From: Bifidobacterium polysaccharolyticum
GTDB lineage: Bacteria; Actinomycetota; Actinomycetes; Actinomycetales; Bifidobacteriaceae
Assembly (NCBI RefSeq): GCF_016101585.1
Contig: NZ_JACFQG010000005.1
Coordinates: 62,001-126,000, forward strand
Direction: 5' to 3'
DNA length: 64,000 bases
Shown piece after piece: positions 20,149 through 29,028 of the stretch (position 1 is its first letter; every line of letters begins with the position of its first letter). Both the position numbers and the translations under genes were made by a program. The notes under the pieces are model-generated. The model was given only the letters and a program-made list of their open reading frames with translations. It did no database searches and had not been told where the DNA came from.

Positions 20149-21195
20149 GTGGTCACGATGCAGGAAATCGGGGACAGCCTCGGTGTTTCCAAAGCAGCTG
20201 TATCGTTAGTGCTCAATGGTAAGGACCAGGGCCGAATCCGCCGGGAAACGGCTCAGGCCATCCGGCAGACTGCCCAGGTCATGGGGTACTCCCCCAAGAA
20301 AACCAGTTATTCCAGTGAGAAAAAGACGCGGATTCTGGGATTCATCAGTGATCACATTGCCACTTCCCCCTATGCGGGCAGGCTAATTTTTGGTGCCCAG
20401 GAGGCTGCGCGACAGCTGGGTTACATCATCGTCGCGGTCAATACGGATGGGGATGACCAGCTGCAGGCCTCTGAAATTTCAGCCCTGAAAAGCTACGGAG
20501 TAGATGGTTTCCTCTATGCCTGTGTCTATAACCAGGTGATCCACTTGCCACAGAGTCTGAACGGGGAGCGGGTGGTGATTGTGGACGCCACTGATACCAG
20601 CGGCCATGTTCCCTCTATCATTCCTGATGAGCGACATATAGGCAGAACCGCCACCCGTCACCTGATCGATGTTGGGTGCAAACGTATTGCCTTTATTGGT
20701 TCATTTGGCCCCATGCAGGCTCAGCGCGGTCGACTGGCTGGTTACTGCAAGGAACTCACCGAGCACGGCATAGCAGTAGACGATAATCTGATCGTAAATG
20801 TAGAAATGGGCCAGGATGGGATGGAAAAGGTGGCCCGCTTGGTAGACCAATATCAGCCCGATGGCTTTTTCTGTTTCAACGATGCCCGAGCCTGGTACGT
20901 CTATAGCGCAGCCATGCGGCGCGGGCTCAATGTGGGCCAAGACATCTCAGTAGTTGGAGTGGATAATCACCAGGTTGTTGCTGAAATGATGGCCCCCTCG
21001 CTCACAACTATCGAATTGCCGCACTATGAGATGGGGTACTGGGCCACCCTGAAACTCATTTCACTGATTGAGCGGCGCCGGTTAGATGATCTCAAGCTCT
21101 TGCCCACTAATGCGCCCATTCCCTCGCTTGATCGCATTCACGCCCAGGTCAAGTGTGTGCTGATTGAGAAGGAATCAGTGGTGGGGCATTCATGA
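20149..21195 (+). CDS. LacI-family transcriptional regulator of the fructan locus
   Basis: 348-residue repressor. Residues 1-50 form the LacI HTH and hinge (TMQEIGDSLGVSKAAVSLVLNGK, then RIRRETAQAIRQTAQVMGYSP). The rest is a periplasmic-binding-protein-like sensor domain with the DGFFCFNDARA and VVGVDNH stretches of the family. The GTG at 20149 is preceded by AAAGGGGGAAG and gives the usual short N-terminus. It lies between the permeases and GH32 on the same strand, so it likely autoregulates through the operators at 16295-16335. Fructose or a short fructan is the probable inducer, by inference from the neighbours. Confidence 0.88.
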   Translation: MVTMQEIGDSLGVSKAAVSLVLNGKDQGRIRRETAQAIRQTAQVMGYSPKKTSYSSEKKTRILGFISDHIATSPYAGRLIFGAQEAARQLGYIIVAVNTDGDDQLQASEISALKSYGVDGFLYACVYNQVIHLPQSLNGERVVIVDATDTSGHVPSIIPDERHIGRTATRHLIDVGCKRIAFIGSFGPMQAQRGRLAGYCKELTEHGIAVDDNLIVNVEMGQDGMEKVARLVDQYQPDGFFCFNDARAWYVYSAAMRRGLNVGQDISVVGVDNHQVVAEMMAPSLTTIELPHYEMGYWATLKLISLIERRRLDDLKLLPTNAPIPSLDRIHAQVKCVLIEKESVVGHS

Positions 21196-21202
21196 TTAGT
21201 CT

Positions 21203-21217
21203 CCCCCCCCCCCCCCC
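21203..21217 (+). repeat. Homopolymer tract of 15 C (possible phase-variable element)
   Basis: A run of 15 cytosines lies 7 bp after the LacI stop and about 32 bp before the GH32 start codon. Tracts this long slip readily during replication. It is outside both large reading frames, so length change would act on transcription, mRNA structure or leader translation. It could also be an assembly artefact in length. Confidence 0.85.
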
Positions 21218-21248
21218 TAGATAGATTCCGTATTCCTCAAAGGAGAAG

Positions 21249-22994
21249 ATGATGGAAAACCAGGATTTCGATAGGCTCCCTGGCAAGGACGAGCCCCCTG
21301 CAGGCGTTGAGGCCGAGGCGGGAAACACGATGCAGGTAAGGGCCCGCAGGTGGAGGAAGAAGCATTGGGGCTTGGTCTTTGGAACCTTGCTGGTTGTGAT
21401 ATGCCTCTTGGGAGCCCTCATACCGGTCTTTGCGCCAGGCTTGAGTTTCAAAGGTAACCAGGAGGCTGAGGCCCAGAGTGCTAAGGAGAACCGGTTGATT
21501 CAGAGTAAATTTAAGCAACGATATCATTACTATAACCCGGCCGGATTCATGAACGATGTGCAGACCATCTGGCAGGACAAGAACGGACTATACCACCTGA
21601 TCTACCTGCAAAATGCCAAGTACAAGCATGAGGGTGATGGGACAGAGTGGTATCAGGTTACGACCAAGGATTTTATCCATTATCAAAATGTGGGTGTCTC
21701 CATCCCCAAGTTTGCTGGATCCTGGCAGGACCTAGCGACCGGTTCTATTCTGCCTAACAGCCTTGGGTTTTTCCCTCAACTTGACAGGGAGGATCTGGTG
21801 GCCTACTTCACCAGCTACGTTGATGGCAGACAGGAACAGTTTGTCGCTTACTCCAAGGACGAGGGCAAGACCTTCACCCCCTATGTGGACCATGCCATCA
21901 TGAAAGCTCCTGATGTGACGGCCAACTTCCGTGATCCGTATGTCACTTACAGCGCTGATAAGCACTCGCTCATGATGTATCTTGCAGAGGGTGACAAGAT
22001 AGGGACCTATAGGAGCGATAATGGGCTCGATTTTCACTATGTCGGTGGGACCATGATTAACGCTGACAGCCTGAAAGACGGGATGGGGCTGGGCCTGATT
22101 GAGTGCCCCAATTTGAAGACCCTGATAGACCCCAAGACTGGGAAAACCCAACACATCATGTTTTTTGGAGCCAATGGGTACGAGCATTCCCAGCCTACAG
22201 GCACTTACTACATGGTGGGTCATCTCAACGAGGAGGAAGTATTCGTGCCCGACCAGGAACCCGAACGCATGGATGACGGCTCAGATTATTATGGGGCTAA
22301 CTTCATGCAGGAGAATGAGGGCACCATTCTCTCCTTAGCATGGATGGGGAACTGGGATTATACCTCCAAGGCCCTAGAGGATGGGGAGGGAGAAGTCTAT
22401 AATCTGGGTTCGTTGAGTCTTGCGCATAGGCTCACCTTGGCTGGGCAGGAAGGTGAGTATCGGGTTCGGAATACCATTGTTGAGCCCGAGTCTCTCTATG
22501 GGCAAGCCCTGCGAGGTCAGGTGCAGATAGGGCCAAAATCCCGCCGGGGTCAGCAGTTTGAACTTGAGCGTTCCTCCTATCAAAAAATGCGGTTTGCCTT
22601 TAAGCCCAAGGACGGGACCGCTGTCGGTTCGGCTGGCAGCGTCAAGCTTACCCTGGCCCAATCTGATGCCAGCCTGAACGTGGATTACGATCTGGAGAGC
22701 GGACAATATAAGGTCAGCCGGACTACTAAACGATTTTTGGATGCTCAGGGCCAGGCTAACTACAGCAAGCAGTATGCCCCGGTCGCCACCGGCCTTGAGA
22801 AAGGGCAGGAGCCTGTACTGCATGTGCTGGAGGATCAGAGTAGCGTAGAATTCTGGTTTGAGGGCAGTGGGAGAGTCTATTCCCTCACGAAGTTCTCCAC
22901 GGATAAGACGACCAAGATCGCTGTCCAGGCTACTGAGCCCATGGATCTTACCTATACTCTAGCTGACGTCGCAAGTAATGCTGACCAAGAGTAA
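21249..22994 (+). CDS. Membrane-anchored GH32 beta-fructosidase (fructan hydrolase)
   Basis: 581-residue GH32 enzyme. A cytoplasmic basic segment and one membrane helix (about 39-62) form a type II anchor, leaving the catalytic domain outside. The three acidic motifs are GFMNDVQT (nucleophile Asp103, in place of the usual WMNDPNG), FRDPYV (Asp229, the RDP transition-state stabiliser) and LIECPNL (Glu285, acid/base). The C-terminal part (about 410-570) resembles a GH32 beta-sandwich. It follows the LacI gene with an Lpl-type importer, so it probably cuts levan or inulin at the surface into fragments for uptake. AAAGGAGA precedes the two adjacent ATGs at 21249 and 21252; the second has the better spacing. 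The exact linkage specificity is not readable. Confidence 0.85.
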   Translation: MMENQDFDRLPGKDEPPAGVEAEAGNTMQVRARRWRKKHWGLVFGTLLVVICLLGALIPVFAPGLSFKGNQEAEAQSAKENRLIQSKFKQRYHYYNPAGFMNDVQTIWQDKNGLYHLIYLQNAKYKHEGDGTEWYQVTTKDFIHYQNVGVSIPKFAGSWQDLATGSILPNSLGFFPQLDREDLVAYFTSYVDGRQEQFVAYSKDEGKTFTPYVDHAIMKAPDVTANFRDPYVTYSADKHSLMMYLAEGDKIGTYRSDNGLDFHYVGGTMINADSLKDGMGLGLIECPNLKTLIDPKTGKTQHIMFFGANGYEHSQPTGTYYMVGHLNEEEVFVPDQEPERMDDGSDYYGANFMQENEGTILSLAWMGNWDYTSKALEDGEGEVYNLGSLSLAHRLTLAGQEGEYRVRNTIVEPESLYGQALRGQVQIGPKSRRGQQFELERSSYQKMRFAFKPKDGTAVGSAGSVKLTLAQSDASLNVDYDLESGQYKVSRTTKRFLDAQGQANYSKQYAPVATGLEKGQEPVLHVLEDQSSVEFWFEGSGRVYSLTKFSTDKTTKIAVQATEPMDLTYTLADVASNADQE

Positions 22995-23039
22995 GGCCAG
23001 ACAGGGTTCATAGGACCTGCGGTGACGGGTATCTGCATA

Positions 23040-23079
23040 GGCCCCCCGCCCACCAGGGTAGCCCGGTGGGCGGGGGGCC
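23040..23079. terminator. Strong hairpin between convergent GH32 and copA genes
   Basis: A perfect 15-bp stem (23040-23054 with 23065-23079) closes a 10-nt loop and is followed on the plus strand by AAAAATTT. It lies 45 bp after the GH32 stop and 77 bp after the copA stop, where both transcripts should end. The T-run is poor for a classical terminator, but the stem is very GC-rich. Confidence 0.7.
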
Positions 23080-23156
23080 AAAAATTTCTACATATGCATA
23101 CTGGGCGGTACCTGAGTCAGGTGGGTGTACCGTCCTGGCCGGGGAGCGCTACCGGC

Positions 23157-26015
23157 TTACTTGTTGAGCACCTTCTCCGGGTCGGCATCGAAGGTATCGA
23201 CGCAGTTCTGCGAGCAGAAGTAGTAGGTCTTGCCCTGGTAGTCGCGCTTGGCTGCGGCTGTGTTGGGGTCTATGGACATGCCGCAGACCGGGTCGGTGAC
23301 CTTGTCCGTCGCCGCCTGATCCTGCTGCATGTTGTCATGATGATGGAAGAGTCCCATCTCATTTCCTTTCTCTTGGTTGTGTTCTTGGTGGTTGGAAATA
23401 CTGAGGTCCCTGGTCAGGGCATCCATGTCGATCGGCTTGGCCTCTTTGACCGGCCTGGCCTTCAGGGGCGTGTGCCGCAGCCGGTTGGCGTTGAGCACCA
23501 CCGACAGTGAAGAGAAGGCCATGGCCGCGCCGGCGATCATGGGGTTGAGCAAGAGGCCGATGAAGGGGTAGAGCACGCCGGCGGCGATGGGGATGCCCAG
23601 GCCGTTGTATCCAAAGGCGAACCAGAGGTTCTGATGGATGTTGCGCATGGTTGCTGCTGAGAGGTCAATAGCCTTGACGGCTGCGTTCAGGTCGCCTGAG
23701 ACCAGGGTCACGTCGGCGGACTCGATGGCCACGTCCGTTCCGGTGCCGATGGCCATGCCCAGGTCGGCCTGAGCCAGGGCCGGGGCGTCATTGATGCCGT
23801 CGCCGATCATGGCCACCTTGTGTCCTTGGGCCTGAAGGGCCTTGACGATGCTCGCCTTGTCCTCGGGATGGATCTGCGCCACCACCCGGGTGACCCCTAC
23901 CTGGCCGCCGACCTGCTCCGCAGTGCCCTGGTTGTCGCCGGTCAGCATGATGGTCTGGATGCCACGCTCGTTCATGTCGTGGATGGCCTGCTTGGATCCG
24001 GACTTGACCTGGTCGGTCACTGCCAGGACCCCGGCAAGCTTGCCGTCGATGGCTACGAAGATGGTCGTGCGGCCCTGATCCTCCCAGCTGCGGGCAGTGT
24101 CCAAGAGGGATTGCGCGCCAGTCCGGTCCGCTATTTCGTTCTCAAGTTCGATTCCCTTGCTCTCGAGCAGTCTGCGGTTGCCGACAAGAACATGCGGGGT
24201 TCCTCTGTCTGCCTCGAAGGAGCCGGAGGGGAAGGTCGCATCGATGCCAGCGCCGGTAACCGAGTCGAAGTCCTTGGCCGGGACCAGCTCCAGGTTGCGG
24301 TCCTTGGCAGCCTGGACGATGGCCTGGGCCAGGGGGTGCTCGGAATTGCTCTCGGCGCTCGCGGCCGCCTTGATCAGCAGGTCCTCATCCATCCCCTGCA
24401 CGCTCTGGGCATCAGCCAGTTCAGGTCGGCCTTGGGTGATGGTGCCGGTCTTGTCAAGGACGATGGTGTCGACGTCATGCGCTCCCTGCAGGGCCTCCGC
24501 CGACCGGTAGAGCACGCCGGCACGGGCGCCGCGTCCGGTGCCGATCGTCACGGATAGGGGAGTGGCCAGGCCTAGGGCGCAGGGGCAGGCGATGACCAGG
24601 ACGGAGACCGCCGCCACGATTCCGTATACTCCGCGGGGCATGGGGCCGAACGCCCACCAGGCCACGAAGGTCCAGAGCGCTACCAGAATGACCCCGGGAA
24701 TAAAGATGGAGGATATGCGGTCGGCCAGTTTCTGGATGGGCGCCTTGGAGGTTTGAGCCGTTTTGACCAGCCGGATGATCTGTGCAAGGACCGTGTCCTG
24801 CCCTACCTGGGTGGCCTTGTAGCGCAGGGAACCCGTGCCGTTGACGGTGGCCCCGACCAGGGAATCACCCTCCTGCTTGAGGACGGGCATGGGCTCGCCG
24901 GTCACCATGGATTCGTCCACTGAGGATGACCCGGATATGACCTGGCCGTCCACCGGCAGCTTCTCGCCCGGATGGACCTGAATCACGTCTCCGACGACTA
25001 CATCGTCGACGGCGATTTCCTGGGTGGTCTCCCTGCCGTCCTGGCCGGTCCTCACCACGGTGGCGGTCTTGGGCCTCAGTCCGATAAGAGCGCGGATGGC
25101 ATCGCCGGTGCCGCGCCGGGCCCGTGCCTCCAGGATTTGGCCGAGGATCATCAGGGTAATGATGGTGCCCACGGCCTCGTAATATGGTTCACGGCTTCCC
25201 TCAGGCAGGAGTTGCGGGGCCACAGTGACCACCAGTGAGTAGAGGAAGGCTGTGGCAGTGCCCAGGGCGACCAGGGAGTTCATCTCCGGGGCCCGATGTG
25301 CCAGGGCCAGCCACCCGGTGCGATGGATGGGCCAGCCCGAGTAGAACATGACCGGCAATATTAGGACCAGCTGGACCCAAGGGTTCATCAGAATGTGGGG
25401 CATGGGCAGGAACATGCCGAACATGGCTGGTATGAAAACCGGGAGCGTGAAGACCAGGGCTACGATGAATCGCCTGGTCAGGTCACGGATTTCTGCTGTG
25501 CGCTCCTGGTCGGCCTCGTCCTGGTCGTTGCCGCCATTGGTCTGGGCGGGCTTGGCGGATTCGGCGGCCTCGGCCTGTGAACGTTCGTCTTGTGACTGGC
25601 TACTTTGTGCCTGTTCGGATTGTGCCTCGGCACTGTCGGTCGTCGGTCCATTGGTGGCCCGGAGCATCCCGTGGAGCATGTTCATTCCGCAGGCGAAGGG
25701 ATAGTCGCCGGCCTTGGGCGGGGTCAGCTGGACGGTCGAGGTCTGGAAGGCGGGCAAAGTCTTGTCGATATTGAAGTCATTGAAGACCACATGTGAGGAG
25801 CATTCCCCGCTCTCCTGGCGGTCGAAGACCAGCTTGACCGGCCGCCCGGCCTGAACCTGGATCAGCTGAGGGCTGTATCCGCCCTTGACTGTGATGTGGA
25901 CGGTCTGGACGCCGCCCTCATCCTTGGCCTGGGTGGCCTTTCTGGGCGCGAAGAAGTACCAGATGATGCCCGCCGTGATGACCAGGGCTGCGATAAGGAC
26001 CAGGATGCTGCTCAT
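23157..26015 (-). CDS. copA: Copper P1B-type ATPase with N-terminal cupredoxin and C-terminal YHS domain
   Basis: 952-residue copper-exporting ATPase in three parts. An N-terminal membrane helix is followed by a cupredoxin-like domain (about residues 40-120) with likely copper ligands His75, Cys109, His115 and Met117, and then an acidic linker. The ATPase core has the CPC metal site (477-479), the phosphorylated Asp521 in DKTGT, TGEP, and [10 protein letters not shown]-terminal YHS domain ends the protein, with DPVCGM and CSQNC; a His-rich MGLFHHHDN segment precedes it. The ATG at 26015 starts the membrane helix; the reading frame extends upstream through the CsoR operator and is not used. 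No SD exists, and TATAGT ends 7 nt before this ATG, so the mRNA may be leaderless. Another ATG with AGAAAGG upstream lies at 23357 in frame and could give the YHS domain alone. Confidence 0.9.
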
Positions 26016-26024
26016 GTGGCCCAC

Positions 26025-26043
26025 TATACCCCCCAGGGGTATA
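26025..26043. promoter_or_regulatory. CsoR operator overlapping the copA -10
   Basis: TATACCCC (26025-26032) and GGGGTATA (26036-26043) form a perfect palindrome with a 3-bp CCA spacer, the usual form of a CsoR box (C-runs facing G-runs flanked by TA). It lies between copA and the divergent csoR gene and covers the minus-strand TATAGT (26028-26023). Copper-free CsoR would therefore block copA initiation. Confidence 0.85.
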
Positions 26044-26129
26044 CTGATAGTGAATTTCGAGATGGTTTCATGAATCCAAGTTGCTCTCGACTCTGCTATG
26101 AAGACCATTGACTAGGAATGGAGTAAATC

Positions 26130-26411
26130 GTGCCCGGATATGCCAACGACAAAAAACGGACCATCACCAGACTCCGGCGTGTCGAGGGCCAGGTCAGGGC
26201 CATCGAGCAGATGGTCGAGTCGGATACCTATTGCATTGACATCCTCACTCAGATTGCCGCCTCGACCAGCGCCCTGAAGTCGGTGGCTCTGACCCTGCTG
26301 GACGACCACATGAACCACTGCGTTCGCGAGGCTGCCGAAAAGGGGGGCGAAGAAGCCGACGAGAAGATGCAGGAGGCTTCCGAGGCCATCGCCCGCCTGG
26401 TTCGTTCCTAG
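26130..26411 (+). CDS. csoR: Copper-sensing repressor CsoR (DUF156 family)
   Basis: 93-residue all-helical repressor. The family metal site is exact: Cys35, His60 and Cys64, corresponding to Cys-His-Cys of mycobacterial CsoR. The helix RRVEGQVRAIEQMVE is the typical DUF156 start. Cu(I) binding releases it from DNA. It begins with GTG, 6 nt after GGAG, and is divergent from copA. A palindrome in the shared interval (26025-26043) is the expected target. An alternative family member (RcnR, FrmR or CstR) is unlikely given the residues and context. Confidence 0.92.
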   Translation: MPGYANDKKRTITRLRRVEGQVRAIEQMVESDTYCIDILTQIAASTSALKSVALTLLDDHMNHCVREAAEKGGEEADEKMQEASEAIARLVRS

Positions 26412-26575
26412 CAACCCTTGTCAGACAGATCCAATCCGCCCTTGAATAGCAGTCCATAAGCAACGGGTATAGGCATTCTTCCGGGAATCGCTGAACTTTC
26501 GCTTCTTTCCTGTTAGATTGAACCCCAACCCCAGACCGTTCGGTCCTGGGAAGAAGAGGTTGAAGGGGAGAGGCA

Positions 26576-27940
26576 ATGTCGGAAACAAGTTGGGATTGGG
26601 CGGCCCTGATAGTGGTCGTCATTCTCTTTGCGGGGCTGGCCCTGCTGAGCAGGAAGACCAAGGTCAACTTCAGTTGGCGGGTCATCATAGCGACGGTACT
26701 GGGAATACTGGTGGGTGTGGGCTTCTCCGGTCACACCACCTATGTGGGGGCATTCGGCAACGTCTGGTCCGAGGTCATTTCGGCCCTCGTGGTGCCCCTC
26801 CTGCTCTTCAGCATCATTGCCAGCATCAGCCGTATCGGAGGGTCTAGTCGGCTGAAGAACATCAGTGTGAAGACCATCGTTCTTCTCCTGGTCAACACCT
26901 TCACAGCTGCCGTGATAGCCCTGGTTTTGGGGCTGCTCTTCCAGGTCGGCAAGGGGTTCAACCAGGCCCTGCCCAAGGGGGCCAAGCCTCACGAGGTGCC
27001 AGGGGTGCTCGATACTCTGGTCGGTCTCTTCCCATCGAATCTGGCGGCAAACTGGGCCCAGAACCAGGTTATCCCTGTCGTGATCTTCGCCATCCTCCTG
27101 GCGGTCTCTCTGAACAAGGCCGCCTCAACACCGCGCGGGGAGCAGAGCGTGGCCCCCTTCAAGGCTTTCGTGGACGCCGGCAATGTGGTTCTGTCCAAGG
27201 CCACTCAAATCGTGGTCGGCTTCACTCCCTATGCTGTCCTGTCTCTGATCGCAGCCGCCATTGGTCGCAGCAACCTGAAGAGCCTTCTGCCCCTGCTTGC
27301 TGTTCTTCTGGTGGCCTACCTGGGTCTGGCCATTCAGCTCTTCCTGGTCCAACCCCTGATCCTGGCCCTGGTCGGTAGGGTCAATCCTCTGCCCTTCTTC
27401 CGCTCCCTTTGGCCGGCGGGCGTGGTCGCCTTCACCTCAGAGAGCAGCATCGGGACCATTCCTGTCACGGTCCGTCAGCTGCGCTCTGCCGGCGTTCCCG
27501 AAGAGACGGCCTCCTTCGTGGCTAGTCTGGGAGCCAATCTGGGCATGCCCGGATGCGCCGGACTCTGGCCCGTTCTCCTGGCGGTCTTCGCCATCAACGC
27601 ACAGGGGATTCCTTACTCCCCCCTGCGTTTCGCCCTCCTGATCGTCTTTGCCCTGGTGGTTTCCGTCGGGACGGTAGGCGTGCCCGGCACAGCCACGATC
27701 ACCGCCACCTCCCTATTCACGGCGGCTGGCCTGCCCGTACCATTCATCGCTATCATGCAGCCTATTTCCCAGCTGGTGGATATGGGCCGTACGCTGGTGA
27801 ACGTGGCTGGTGCCGCCAATACGGCAGTCATCGTGGCCAGGACCGAGAACGAGCTGGACCTGGACCTTTACCAGGGCCGCAAGGTCTTCGACGACCAGGA
27901 CATTGAAGCGGACGAGGAAATACAACAGTCAGCAGACTAG
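26576..27940 (+). CDS. Dicarboxylate/amino acid:cation symporter (DAACS family)
   Basis: 454-residue membrane symporter of the SDF/GltP superfamily, with about eight helices plus hairpins. Family regions are visible: the SIIASISRIG helix end, the serine-rich FTSESSIGTIPVTVRQL hairpin and the MGRTLVNVAGAANTAVIVAR helix that binds substrate and Na+. It resembles the cystine/dicarboxylate branch (TcyP or GltP-like), but specificity cannot be assigned. GGGGAGAGGCA precedes the ATG. Its stop and the stop of the convergent GH105 gene share the palindromic CTAG at 27937-27940. The gene is monocistronic; a small palindrome, GACCGTTCGGTC, lies near 26534-26545. Confidence 0.85.
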   Translation: MSETSWDWAALIVVVILFAGLALLSRKTKVNFSWRVIIATVLGILVGVGFSGHTTYVGAFGNVWSEVISALVVPLLLFSIIASISRIGGSSRLKNISVKTIVLLLVNTFTAAVIALVLGLLFQVGKGFNQALPKGAKPHEVPGVLDTLVGLFPSNLAANWAQNQVIPVVIFAILLAVSLNKAASTPRGEQSVAPFKAFVDAGNVVLSKATQIVVGFTPYAVLSLIAAAIGRSNLKSLLPLLAVLLVAYLGLAIQLFLVQPLILALVGRVNPLPFFRSLWPAGVVAFTSESSIGTIPVTVRQLRSAGVPEETASFVASLGANLGMPGCAGLWPVLLAVFAINAQGIPYSPLRFALLIVFALVVSVGTVGVPGTATITATSLFTAAGLPVPFIAIMQPISQLVDMGRTLVNVAGAANTAVIVARTENELDLDLYQGRKVFDDQDIEADEEIQQSAD

Positions 27941-29028
27941 ACCCGGATGCGTTCCATTCCCGCGCACATGAGCAGGAAGGCGCCCACCCCGTGCATGTCG
28001 TTGATGCTGGTGGGTCGCTGGCAGTATTCCTCATAGCTGCCGGGGCCGGTTCCTACGCAGATGTCGCCGATGAGGAGGTCATCTCCCTGCCACTCAAGGC
28101 TCGTTATGACCCCCTCATACCCCTTGTTGGCTACTTCCAGATAGGCCTTGTCCAGAATGCCTTGGTCTACGGCCTTGCAGATGGCGGCCACGAAGAGACA
28201 GGTGCAAGAGTTCTCAGGCCAGTTGCCCGCCTGGCCGACCTTGTCGAGAACCTGCCACCAACGGCCGTCGGGGCCCTGATAGCGGCAGACTGCGGTCAGC
28301 AGGTCGCGGACCAGGTTTCGCAGATCCTCGCGCCCCGGGTGGCTCTGCGGCAGCAGTTCCAGTTCATTGACTACTGCCATGGGTACCCAGCCGATGGAAC
28401 GCCCCCAGTATTCGGGGGAGAGACCTGTTACAGGGTCGGCCCAGGGTTCTTTCCGATCCGGATCATAGGCGTGCCGCCAGAGCCCGGTTTCAGGTACGCG
28501 GGTTTTCCTCTGCATCAGGAGGGCCTGTCTGACGGCCTCGTCCACCAGATTCCTGCGTCCGAAGCGGGTACCGTATTCCACCATCATGGGGCCACCCATA
28601 TAGAGCCCATCCAGCCACATCTGCCGCGGTACTCCGTCGTTGTGCCAGAATCCGCCCTCGTCGTTCTTCGGATAGGCTTCAAGGTCGTCGGCCAACTGGT
28701 CCAGGCCGGTCTTGTACCGGGAGGATCCGAAATGGTCATAAAGGGGGAAGAGGAGGATGCCTGGCTGGATGTCGTCCAAGCATACGGGATCGTGGTTGAG
28801 CACGTGGCCCTGGTCATCCAGGTTGGATTCGATCCAACCCCTTATGTACTCCAGATAGGATTCGTCATTGTTGATCAGATAGGTTTGGTGCACTCCAGAC
28901 AGAAGGACGCCCTGATGGTAGTGGAAATGGTGGATCGGCGGCAGGTCGGCCGGGTTCGGATACGTGCGGCGGAGTGTGTCGACCGCTGCCTGGGCATACT
29001 CCAGTGGTGTTGACCGGGTCTGAACCAT
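27937..29028 (-). CDS. GH105 unsaturated rhamnogalacturonyl hydrolase (YteR/YesR-like)
   Basis: 363-residue (alpha/alpha)6-barrel glycoside hydrolase. It hydrolyses the unsaturated glucuronyl or galacturonyl unit from lyase-generated disaccharides. The GH105 landmark MWLDGLYMGGPMM is present, with the catalytic acid Asp140, and WGRSIGW follows later. No signal peptide is seen, so it acts in the cytoplasm on imported fragments. GAGGAAGG lies upstream of the ATG. It is divergent from the uronate dehydrogenase and isomerase genes. The set suggests release of an unsaturated uronate and its conversion to a 2-keto-3-deoxy acid. No pectate lyase or transporter is in the window. Confidence 0.88.
   Translation of the reverse strand: MVQTRSTPLEYAQAAVDTLRRTYPNPADLPPIHHFHYHQGVLLSGVHQTYLINNDESYLEYIRGWIESNLDDQGHVLNHDPVCLDDIQPGILLFPLYDHFGSSRYKTGLDQLADDLEAYPKNDEGGFWHNDGVPRQMWLDGLYMGGPMMVEYGTRFGRRNLVDEAVRQALLMQRKTRVPETGLWRHAYDPDRKEPWADPVTGLSPEYWGRSIGWVPMAVVNELELLPQSHPGREDLRNLVRDLLTAVCRYQGPDGRWWQVLDKVGQAGNWPENSCTCLFVAAICKAVDQGILDKAYLEVANKGYEGVITSLEWQGDDLLIGDICVGTGPGSYEEYCQRPTSINDMHGVGAFLLMCAGMERIRV

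Follow-up and report, generated by a model that had tools for sequence, protein, structure and literature searches.

A conserved in-frame internal start in a bifidobacterial copper-pump gene, predicted to yield a free YHS protein beside the pump

Organization of the copA-YHS locus

Analysis of the window, a stretch of 64,000 nucleotides from a contig of Bifidobacterium polysaccharolyticum, identified a copper-pump gene, designated copA-YHS, together with the following features.

23157..26015, minus strand: copA-YHS gene, 952 aa, stop codon included in the coordinates (translation, Pfam, NCBIfam)
25662..25973, minus strand: cupredoxin-like domain, residues 15-118 (Pfam PF13473 Cupredoxin_1; E value, 2.5e-19)
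23763..25079, minus strand: P-type ATPase E1-E2 and HAD domains, residues 313-751 (PF00122, PF00702), CPC and DKTGT motifs included
23169..23300, minus strand: YHS domain, residues 906-949 (Pfam PF04945; E value, 3.8e-17), ligand residues invariant
23157..23357, minus strand: nested open reading frame (ORF) for a predicted free YHS protein of 66 aa, starting at an in-frame internal ATG (Met887)
23364..23369, minus strand: internal Shine-Dalgarno (SD) sequence AAAGGA, with a 6-nt spacer to the internal ATG, conserved in homologues
26025..26043, no strand assigned: CsoR-type palindrome TATACCCCCCAGGGGTATA, immediately 5' of the pump start, a putative operator
26130..26411, plus strand: CsoR/RicR-like repressor gene, divergent from the pump, 93 aa (PF02583, over cut-off)
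20149-22994 and 26576-29028: neighbouring genes for a LacI-type regulator, a GH32 glycosidase, a sodium:dicarboxylate-type symporter and a GH88 glycosidase (Pfam)

The encoded protein is composed of an N-terminal hydrophobic stretch and a cupredoxin domain, a CPC-type copper P1B-ATPase, a linker, and a YHS domain, in this order. According to Pfam analysis, the ATPase part contains an E1-E2_ATPase domain (residues 313-498) and a Hydrolase (HAD) domain (residues 515-751). The pump scored 590 bits against the NCBIfam copper-ATPase model TIGR01511 (cut-off, 397), and the CPC membrane motif, DKTGT, and GDGIND were all present in its translation, which places it among the P1B-type copper ATPases (CopA). 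Its predicted function is ATP-driven copper export. No HMA match was obtained in a Pfam search of the 952-aa protein. The original prediction that a cupredoxin-like domain, a CPC-type ATPase, and a C-terminal YHS domain share one frame was thus borne out by the Pfam and NCBIfam analysis of the 952-aa translation.

The minus-strand frame is open throughout 23157-26108, giving 952 aa from the ATG at 26015 and 983 aa from 26108. Position 26015 is considered the better pump start, because the 983-aa reading from 26108 crosses the palindrome at 26025-26043 and because relatives L014-L016 carry GAAAGGG immediately 5' of the ATG orthologous to 26015. Approximately 10 nt separate the palindrome from the pump ATG (26015-26043), both in the window and in its nearest relatives (L001-L013); no clear SD precedes this ATG, and the internal SD is strong. 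Translation of the pump may proceed from a very short leader in these loci.

The best NCBIfam match of the divergent repressor was RicR (NF052430), with a score below the cut-off of this model. A similar palindrome was found upstream of 82 of 138 pump homologues, many of the other loci covering little upstream sequence. At four Bifidobacterium promoters (L108, L113, L118, and L149), the palindrome upstream of copA is immediately followed by another GGGTATA half-site.

The in-frame ATG at 23357 had been proposed to start a 66-residue YHS protein, and the site proved to be as described: the ATG corresponds to Met887 and is preceded by AAAGGA at a spacing of 6 nt. No small-subunit rRNA or 16S pattern was found in the draft genome of the window; the anti-SD sequence was taken from a sister genome of the same genus, whose 16S rRNA 3' end (GGATCACCTCCTTTCT) is complementary to AAAGGA and, also written CCTCCTTTCT, pairs with it. 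A core SD was defined as AAGGA, AGGAG, GGAGG, or GAGGA, and in the main count of fused genes below it was scored when located 4-10 nt before an in-frame ATG at most 50 residues from the first YHS cysteine. A sigma-70 promoter scan of 22950-26600 returned no promoter-like site and therefore lends no support to a separate transcript for the short ORF, although this is weak evidence, as the pump's own promoter was missed too. The junction was inspected for frameshifting by eye only: a -1-frame TGA was seen near the internal site in the window, and relatives with AAGGAGAACACCATG have none there.

YHS and HMA domains within and outside the family

The frequency of the fusion was determined by genus-wide and family-wide domain searches in Bifidobacteriaceae, as had been suggested with the original prediction. 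Each of the 27 genus genomes searched had a single YHS match, always in a frame of at least 952 aa; the sole match being the fused one, no free YHS gene was found elsewhere in these genomes. At the family level, YHS was found in 139 of 189 genomes, nearly always in pump-sized frames. The exceptions were G091, with only a 112-aa frame, and G128, whose 674-aa frame lies close to the end of a contig; second, short YHS frames were present in G149 and G171. YHS is therefore nearly always fused, the opposite of a domain that occurs only as a separate gene. The fusion had been presented as a departure from known CopA proteins; it is real, but it is not rare, given its presence in 27 of 27 genus genomes and in nearly all of the 139 family genomes with YHS. 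A recent stop-codon loss or an assembly error was ruled out by this genus- and family-wide occurrence. The novelty lies in the conserved nested start, not in the domain fusion. Two of the loci match contigs of Bifidobacterium callitrichos and Alloscardovia omnicolens letter for letter, and we take both genera to belong to Bifidobacteriaceae.

An HMA domain in a pump-sized frame (at least 600 aa) was found in 21 family genomes and in none of the 139 YHS genomes (hypergeometric test, 1.7e-14, relatedness ignored). HMA domains over the cut-off were absent from 124 of the 139 YHS genomes; in the other 15, they lay in frames of 75-114 aa (14 genomes) or in a 370-aa frame (one genome). At an E value of 0.01, none was detected in 24 of the 27 genus genomes, the window's own included, and a control search recovered HMA in 14 of 14 genomes, in 13 of them over the cut-off. 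With no HMA domain in the pump or in the genome of the window (E value, 0.01), the locus does not represent an HMA-type CopA/CopZ system.

Of the 21 HMA-pump loci, 13 were inspected. A second HMA domain is fused to the pump C-terminus in five of them (L334-L338, from G132, G133, G134, G125, and G031), all from relatives that lack CopA-YHS, and an SD with an ATG is located at or shortly before the C-terminal HMA start in all five (AAGGAGG in four, AAGGA in L338). The nested HMA products match PF00403. For the four of these products that were compared with NCBIfam, the best model was CopZ_AFE_1862 (67, 68, 67, and 53 bits), and because these scores stay below the cut-off of 85, they are referred to only as CopZ-like. 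In seven loci (L339-L345), a small HMA protein is encoded by its own ORF 3' of copA, and in most of these the ATG is preceded by an SD; in L344, the open frame of this ORF overlaps the pump gene, with its ATG after the pump stop. Neither a C-terminal HMA fusion nor a separate small HMA ORF was found in L346 by the pattern used. YHS and HMA fusions both occur, so that one arrangement, in which a metal-binding protein is nested at the C-terminal end of the pump, recurs with two unrelated domains.

C-terminal YHS fusions were also found outside the family. A core SD precedes an ATG in L195, L198, L201, L204, L215, and L325, as well as in L197 at a spacing of 10, and weaker or differently spaced SDs are present in L196, L199, and L200. 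Among six loci from a class-wide search, L325 has an SD with ATG and L326 an SD with GTG, L327 and L328 have no internal start, L329 has a divergent YHS, and L330 has no YHS. An archaeal contig of Methanothrix harundinacea (L218) encodes a C-terminal YHS on a Cu-type ATPase, with no internal ATG near the YHS border. A YHS fusion can thus exist without an internal start, as L218, L327, and L328 have none. A tree of 53 rows joined the nine rows from outside the family that carry this ATG into one group (support, 99/98; L197 is not in the tree), near rows without the ATG, which indicates that gains or losses of the internal start occurred.

Other YHS arrangements were encountered in these searches. 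A soluble HMA-YHS fusion of 194 aa from another family of the order (L186:204-785) has in-frame methionines just before YHS (EEMEEDMSQK). Two YHS motifs in one frame were observed in L220, L221, L243, L246, L254, L273, L275, L280, L287, L290, L291, and L293, which are P1B-ATPases with N-terminal YHS from many phyla.

The predicted short product contains a complete YHS domain, and D22, C25, C48, and C52 did not vary across 29 short products, in agreement with the ligand pattern of YHS domains. The same D/C/C/C residues have been proposed as copper ligands of a copper-activated adenylyl cyclase with a YHS domain (PMC4626032). According to this source, no YHS domain of an ATPase had yet been demonstrated to bind copper; by analogy with the cyclase, the free YHS protein may bind copper. 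The AlphaFold2 model of the short product had a mean pLDDT of 81. Foldseek against PDB returned nothing below an E value of 0.001; its best matches included phenol hydroxylase chains 2inp and 2inn (probability, 1.00; E value, 0.04-0.08) and were weak, as were matches to toluene hydroxylase chains and, lower, to L24e and a TRASH domain. Chains 2inp and 2inn are also matched by the YHS sequence profile (E value, 1.5e-6).

The free YHS protein is proposed as a stand-in for CopZ mainly because the YHS genomes mostly lack HMA and because of the CopZ-like parallel, and the replacement pattern suggests that it may deliver copper to the pump as a CopZ analogue. A different role seems less likely but deserves consideration, namely that the free YHS protein is made and serves as a copper sensor, a pump regulator, or a partner of the repressor, not as a chaperone delivering copper to CopA. 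In M. phlei, an adenylyl cyclase is described as being switched by its C-terminal YHS domain in response to copper (PMC4626032), which would suit such a role; the replacement pattern with HMA/CopZ-like proteins speaks against it.

Conservation of the internal start

A total of 138 fused genes were analyzed, 137 from Bifidobacteriaceae and one from another family of the order. Rows left out were L030 (no YHS), L165 (in which the pattern detected no fused YHS), L166 and L167 (both with a free YHS of a different type), and L164, which was missed by the search pattern and carries AAGGA-6-ATG. A core SD with an in-frame ATG shortly 5' of YHS was present in 128 of the 138 genes, compared to 9 of 2462 ATGs in the bodies of the same genes, and the SD-ATG spacing was 6 nt in 68 genes and 7 nt in 49 (117 together). 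Codon-shuffled linkers gave an expectation of 15.2 positive genes of 138 against 127 observed, the counts of 127 and 128 reflecting slightly different linker windows. An SD accompanied 136 of the 407 in-frame linker ATGs but only 3 of the 144 out-of-frame ones. The 10 misses consisted of L076 and L159, which have no start, and eight genes with only weaker SDs (judged by eye). The pump-YHS linkers of L076 and L083 (G171 and G167) are very long, about 146 and 245 residues, and are metallothionein-like, with an abundance of His, Met, and Cys clusters.

Codon choice at the site was examined in all 138 genes, as was the redrawing of synonymous codons, with no selection by motif. Lys-Gly shortly before linker ATGs was coded AAA GGA in 55 of 58 cases, compared to 6 of 161 in gene bodies; the corresponding counts were 20 of 42 and 18 of 348 for Glu-Gly coded GAA GGA, and 47 of 71 and 55 of 116 for Lys-Glu coded AAG GAG, with relatedness ignored in the Fisher tests. 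The preference for these codons therefore supports selection on DNA. When the peptides were fixed and synonymous codons were redrawn, 55.4 of 138 genes were expected to be positive, compared to 128 observed, so that much of the SD signal already sits in the peptide; an SD-favoring peptide would be expected if the SD shapes the peptide. Among 16 close relatives, synonymous variation was found at one of the seven informative site codons, the only codons on which this test rests, compared to 68% gene-wide. Equally low variation in these relatives was found in 4 of 799 windows, two of which were the site itself.

Folding of the mRNA around the internal start (-30 to +20) was assessed in the 128 motif-bearing genes. 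On average, this region was less folded than 96% of the windows sampled from gene bodies (mean z, +2.1) and than 88% of the other linker windows. The site thus shows the attributes of an in-frame nested gene, with an SD at start spacing, an in-frame ATG, a position at a domain border, and open mRNA.

It is very unlikely that the internal SD and ATG are the unused relic of a separate yhs gene that was fused by stop-codon loss. Fusion by stop loss is itself a plausible path, since 7 of the 13 HMA-type loci encode the CopZ-like protein separately, 3' of copA and mostly with an SD. A relic should decay, however, whereas the motif was retained in 71 of 78 single-linkage clusters at 85% identity (at least one motif-bearing member; all members in 70) within linkers that otherwise diverge among fused homologues, and the AAA GGA codons and open mRNA speak against decay as well. 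Hardly credible is the idea that the SD-like sequence is kept as a ribosome pause for folding past the last transmembrane helices and not as a start: it does sit in the linker past the membrane part, but pausing would not require an ATG, 142 of 214 SD cores in linkers have an in-frame ATG at start spacing after them compared to 15 of 652 in gene bodies (relatedness ignored), and the short product spans the whole YHS domain.

The domain fusion, the conserved SD and ATG, the codon choice, the open mRNA, and the metal-ligand pattern are present at the sequence level. The nested SD and ATG probably allow one gene to give both the pump and a free copper carrier. Two products from one gene, as the original prediction had it, are strongly supported by this sequence comparison and by the parallel CopZ-like fusions.

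Predicted mechanism and comparison with known systems

We consider it likely that copA-YHS is a copper-export gene that makes a pump and a free YHS protein in one frame, the latter as a copper carrier or buffer. Ribosomes initiating at 26015 would produce the cupredoxin-CopA-YHS pump, and a second set initiating at the internal SD and ATG (23357) would produce the free 66-aa YHS protein; initiation at this ATG and the amounts made are predictions from sequence. The divergent CsoR-like repressor probably controls transcription, and since such control is probable from the palindrome, both products would rise with copper. The free YHS protein would most likely be a soluble copper carrier or buffer in place of CopZ, which may hand copper to the pump or to the repressor; its copper binding and its chaperone role are likewise predicted. 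On balance, we lean slightly toward a wider reading, in which the nesting of a metallochaperone in the copper-pump gene, with release by internal in-frame initiation, is routine for Bifidobacteriaceae and for some related actinomycetes, an arrangement that would have arisen with both HMA/CopZ-like and YHS domains, YHS having replaced CopZ in most of the family.

In automatic annotation, a gene of this type would normally appear as a single protein, and the nested product would be overlooked. If the short protein is made, it would be a copper carrier of an undescribed kind and would explain how most of these bacteria live without an HMA chaperone; under the wider reading, free YHS proteins would represent a novel class of metallochaperones for copper. 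Searches of the open-access literature returned no description of a nested YHS start or of a nested C-terminal CopZ start, and the main text of a small-protein study that included B. longum does not mention YHS (PMC7903761). Genes with nested YHS, nested CopZ-like proteins, separate CopZ-like proteins, and YHS fusions without a nested start form a natural comparison set, which is suited to the question of why translation ties the pump to the carrier.

YHS domains in Cu-ATPases are already known (PMC4626032). P1B-ATPases with an N-terminal YHS (L206-L214 and others) resemble CopA-YHS in carrying YHS on a P1B-ATPase, but lack a nested C-terminal product because their YHS is at the N-terminus. 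The YHS adenylyl cyclase of M. phlei is closer in having a C-terminal, copper-responsive YHS with the same D/C/C/C ligands; there, however, the domain is an enzyme switch, and the accessible text mentions no free YHS (PMC4626032). At the other end of the pump, a cupredoxin-like domain on a Cu-ATPase has been reported for S. pneumoniae CopA (PMC11970713), and CupA has also been described (PMC5646241). As in these proteins, a cupredoxin-type metal-binding domain replaces the usual ferredoxin-like one; in contrast, CupA exists as a protein of its own and has a membrane leader, and no C-terminal YHS is mentioned in the accessible text of either source (PMC5646241, PMC11970713). In-frame internal initiation is established for SctQ/HrcQ of type III secretion, where it yields the C-terminal region as a separate protein, and this part is a separate gene in some species (PMC8553256). 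The principle is the same as proposed here, but the proteins and the pathway are unrelated. CopZ, an HMA metallochaperone, shares with the free YHS protein the proposed role and its encoding together with copA, and CopZ-like proteins are nested in relatives, but the domain is unrelated.

The E. coli protein CopA(Z) is the N-terminal HMA domain of the pump. The copA gene of E. coli also encodes this chaperone via programmed frameshifting (PMC10187127, citing Meydan 2017 and Drees 2017), and copA-YHS is similar in that a single copper-pump gene is predicted to give a pump and a small copper chaperone. Where E. coli uses frameshifting, copA-YHS has a proposed in-frame start toward the C-terminal end, and the domain concerned is YHS. 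With a predicted short product that begins in frame near this end and a pump that lacks HMA, copA-YHS does not belong to the E. coli type, so that the outcome may be analogous to CopA(Z) while the mechanism is different. If this is true, copA-YHS would be a second, independent answer to "one gene, pump plus chaperone", that of E. coli being frameshifting.
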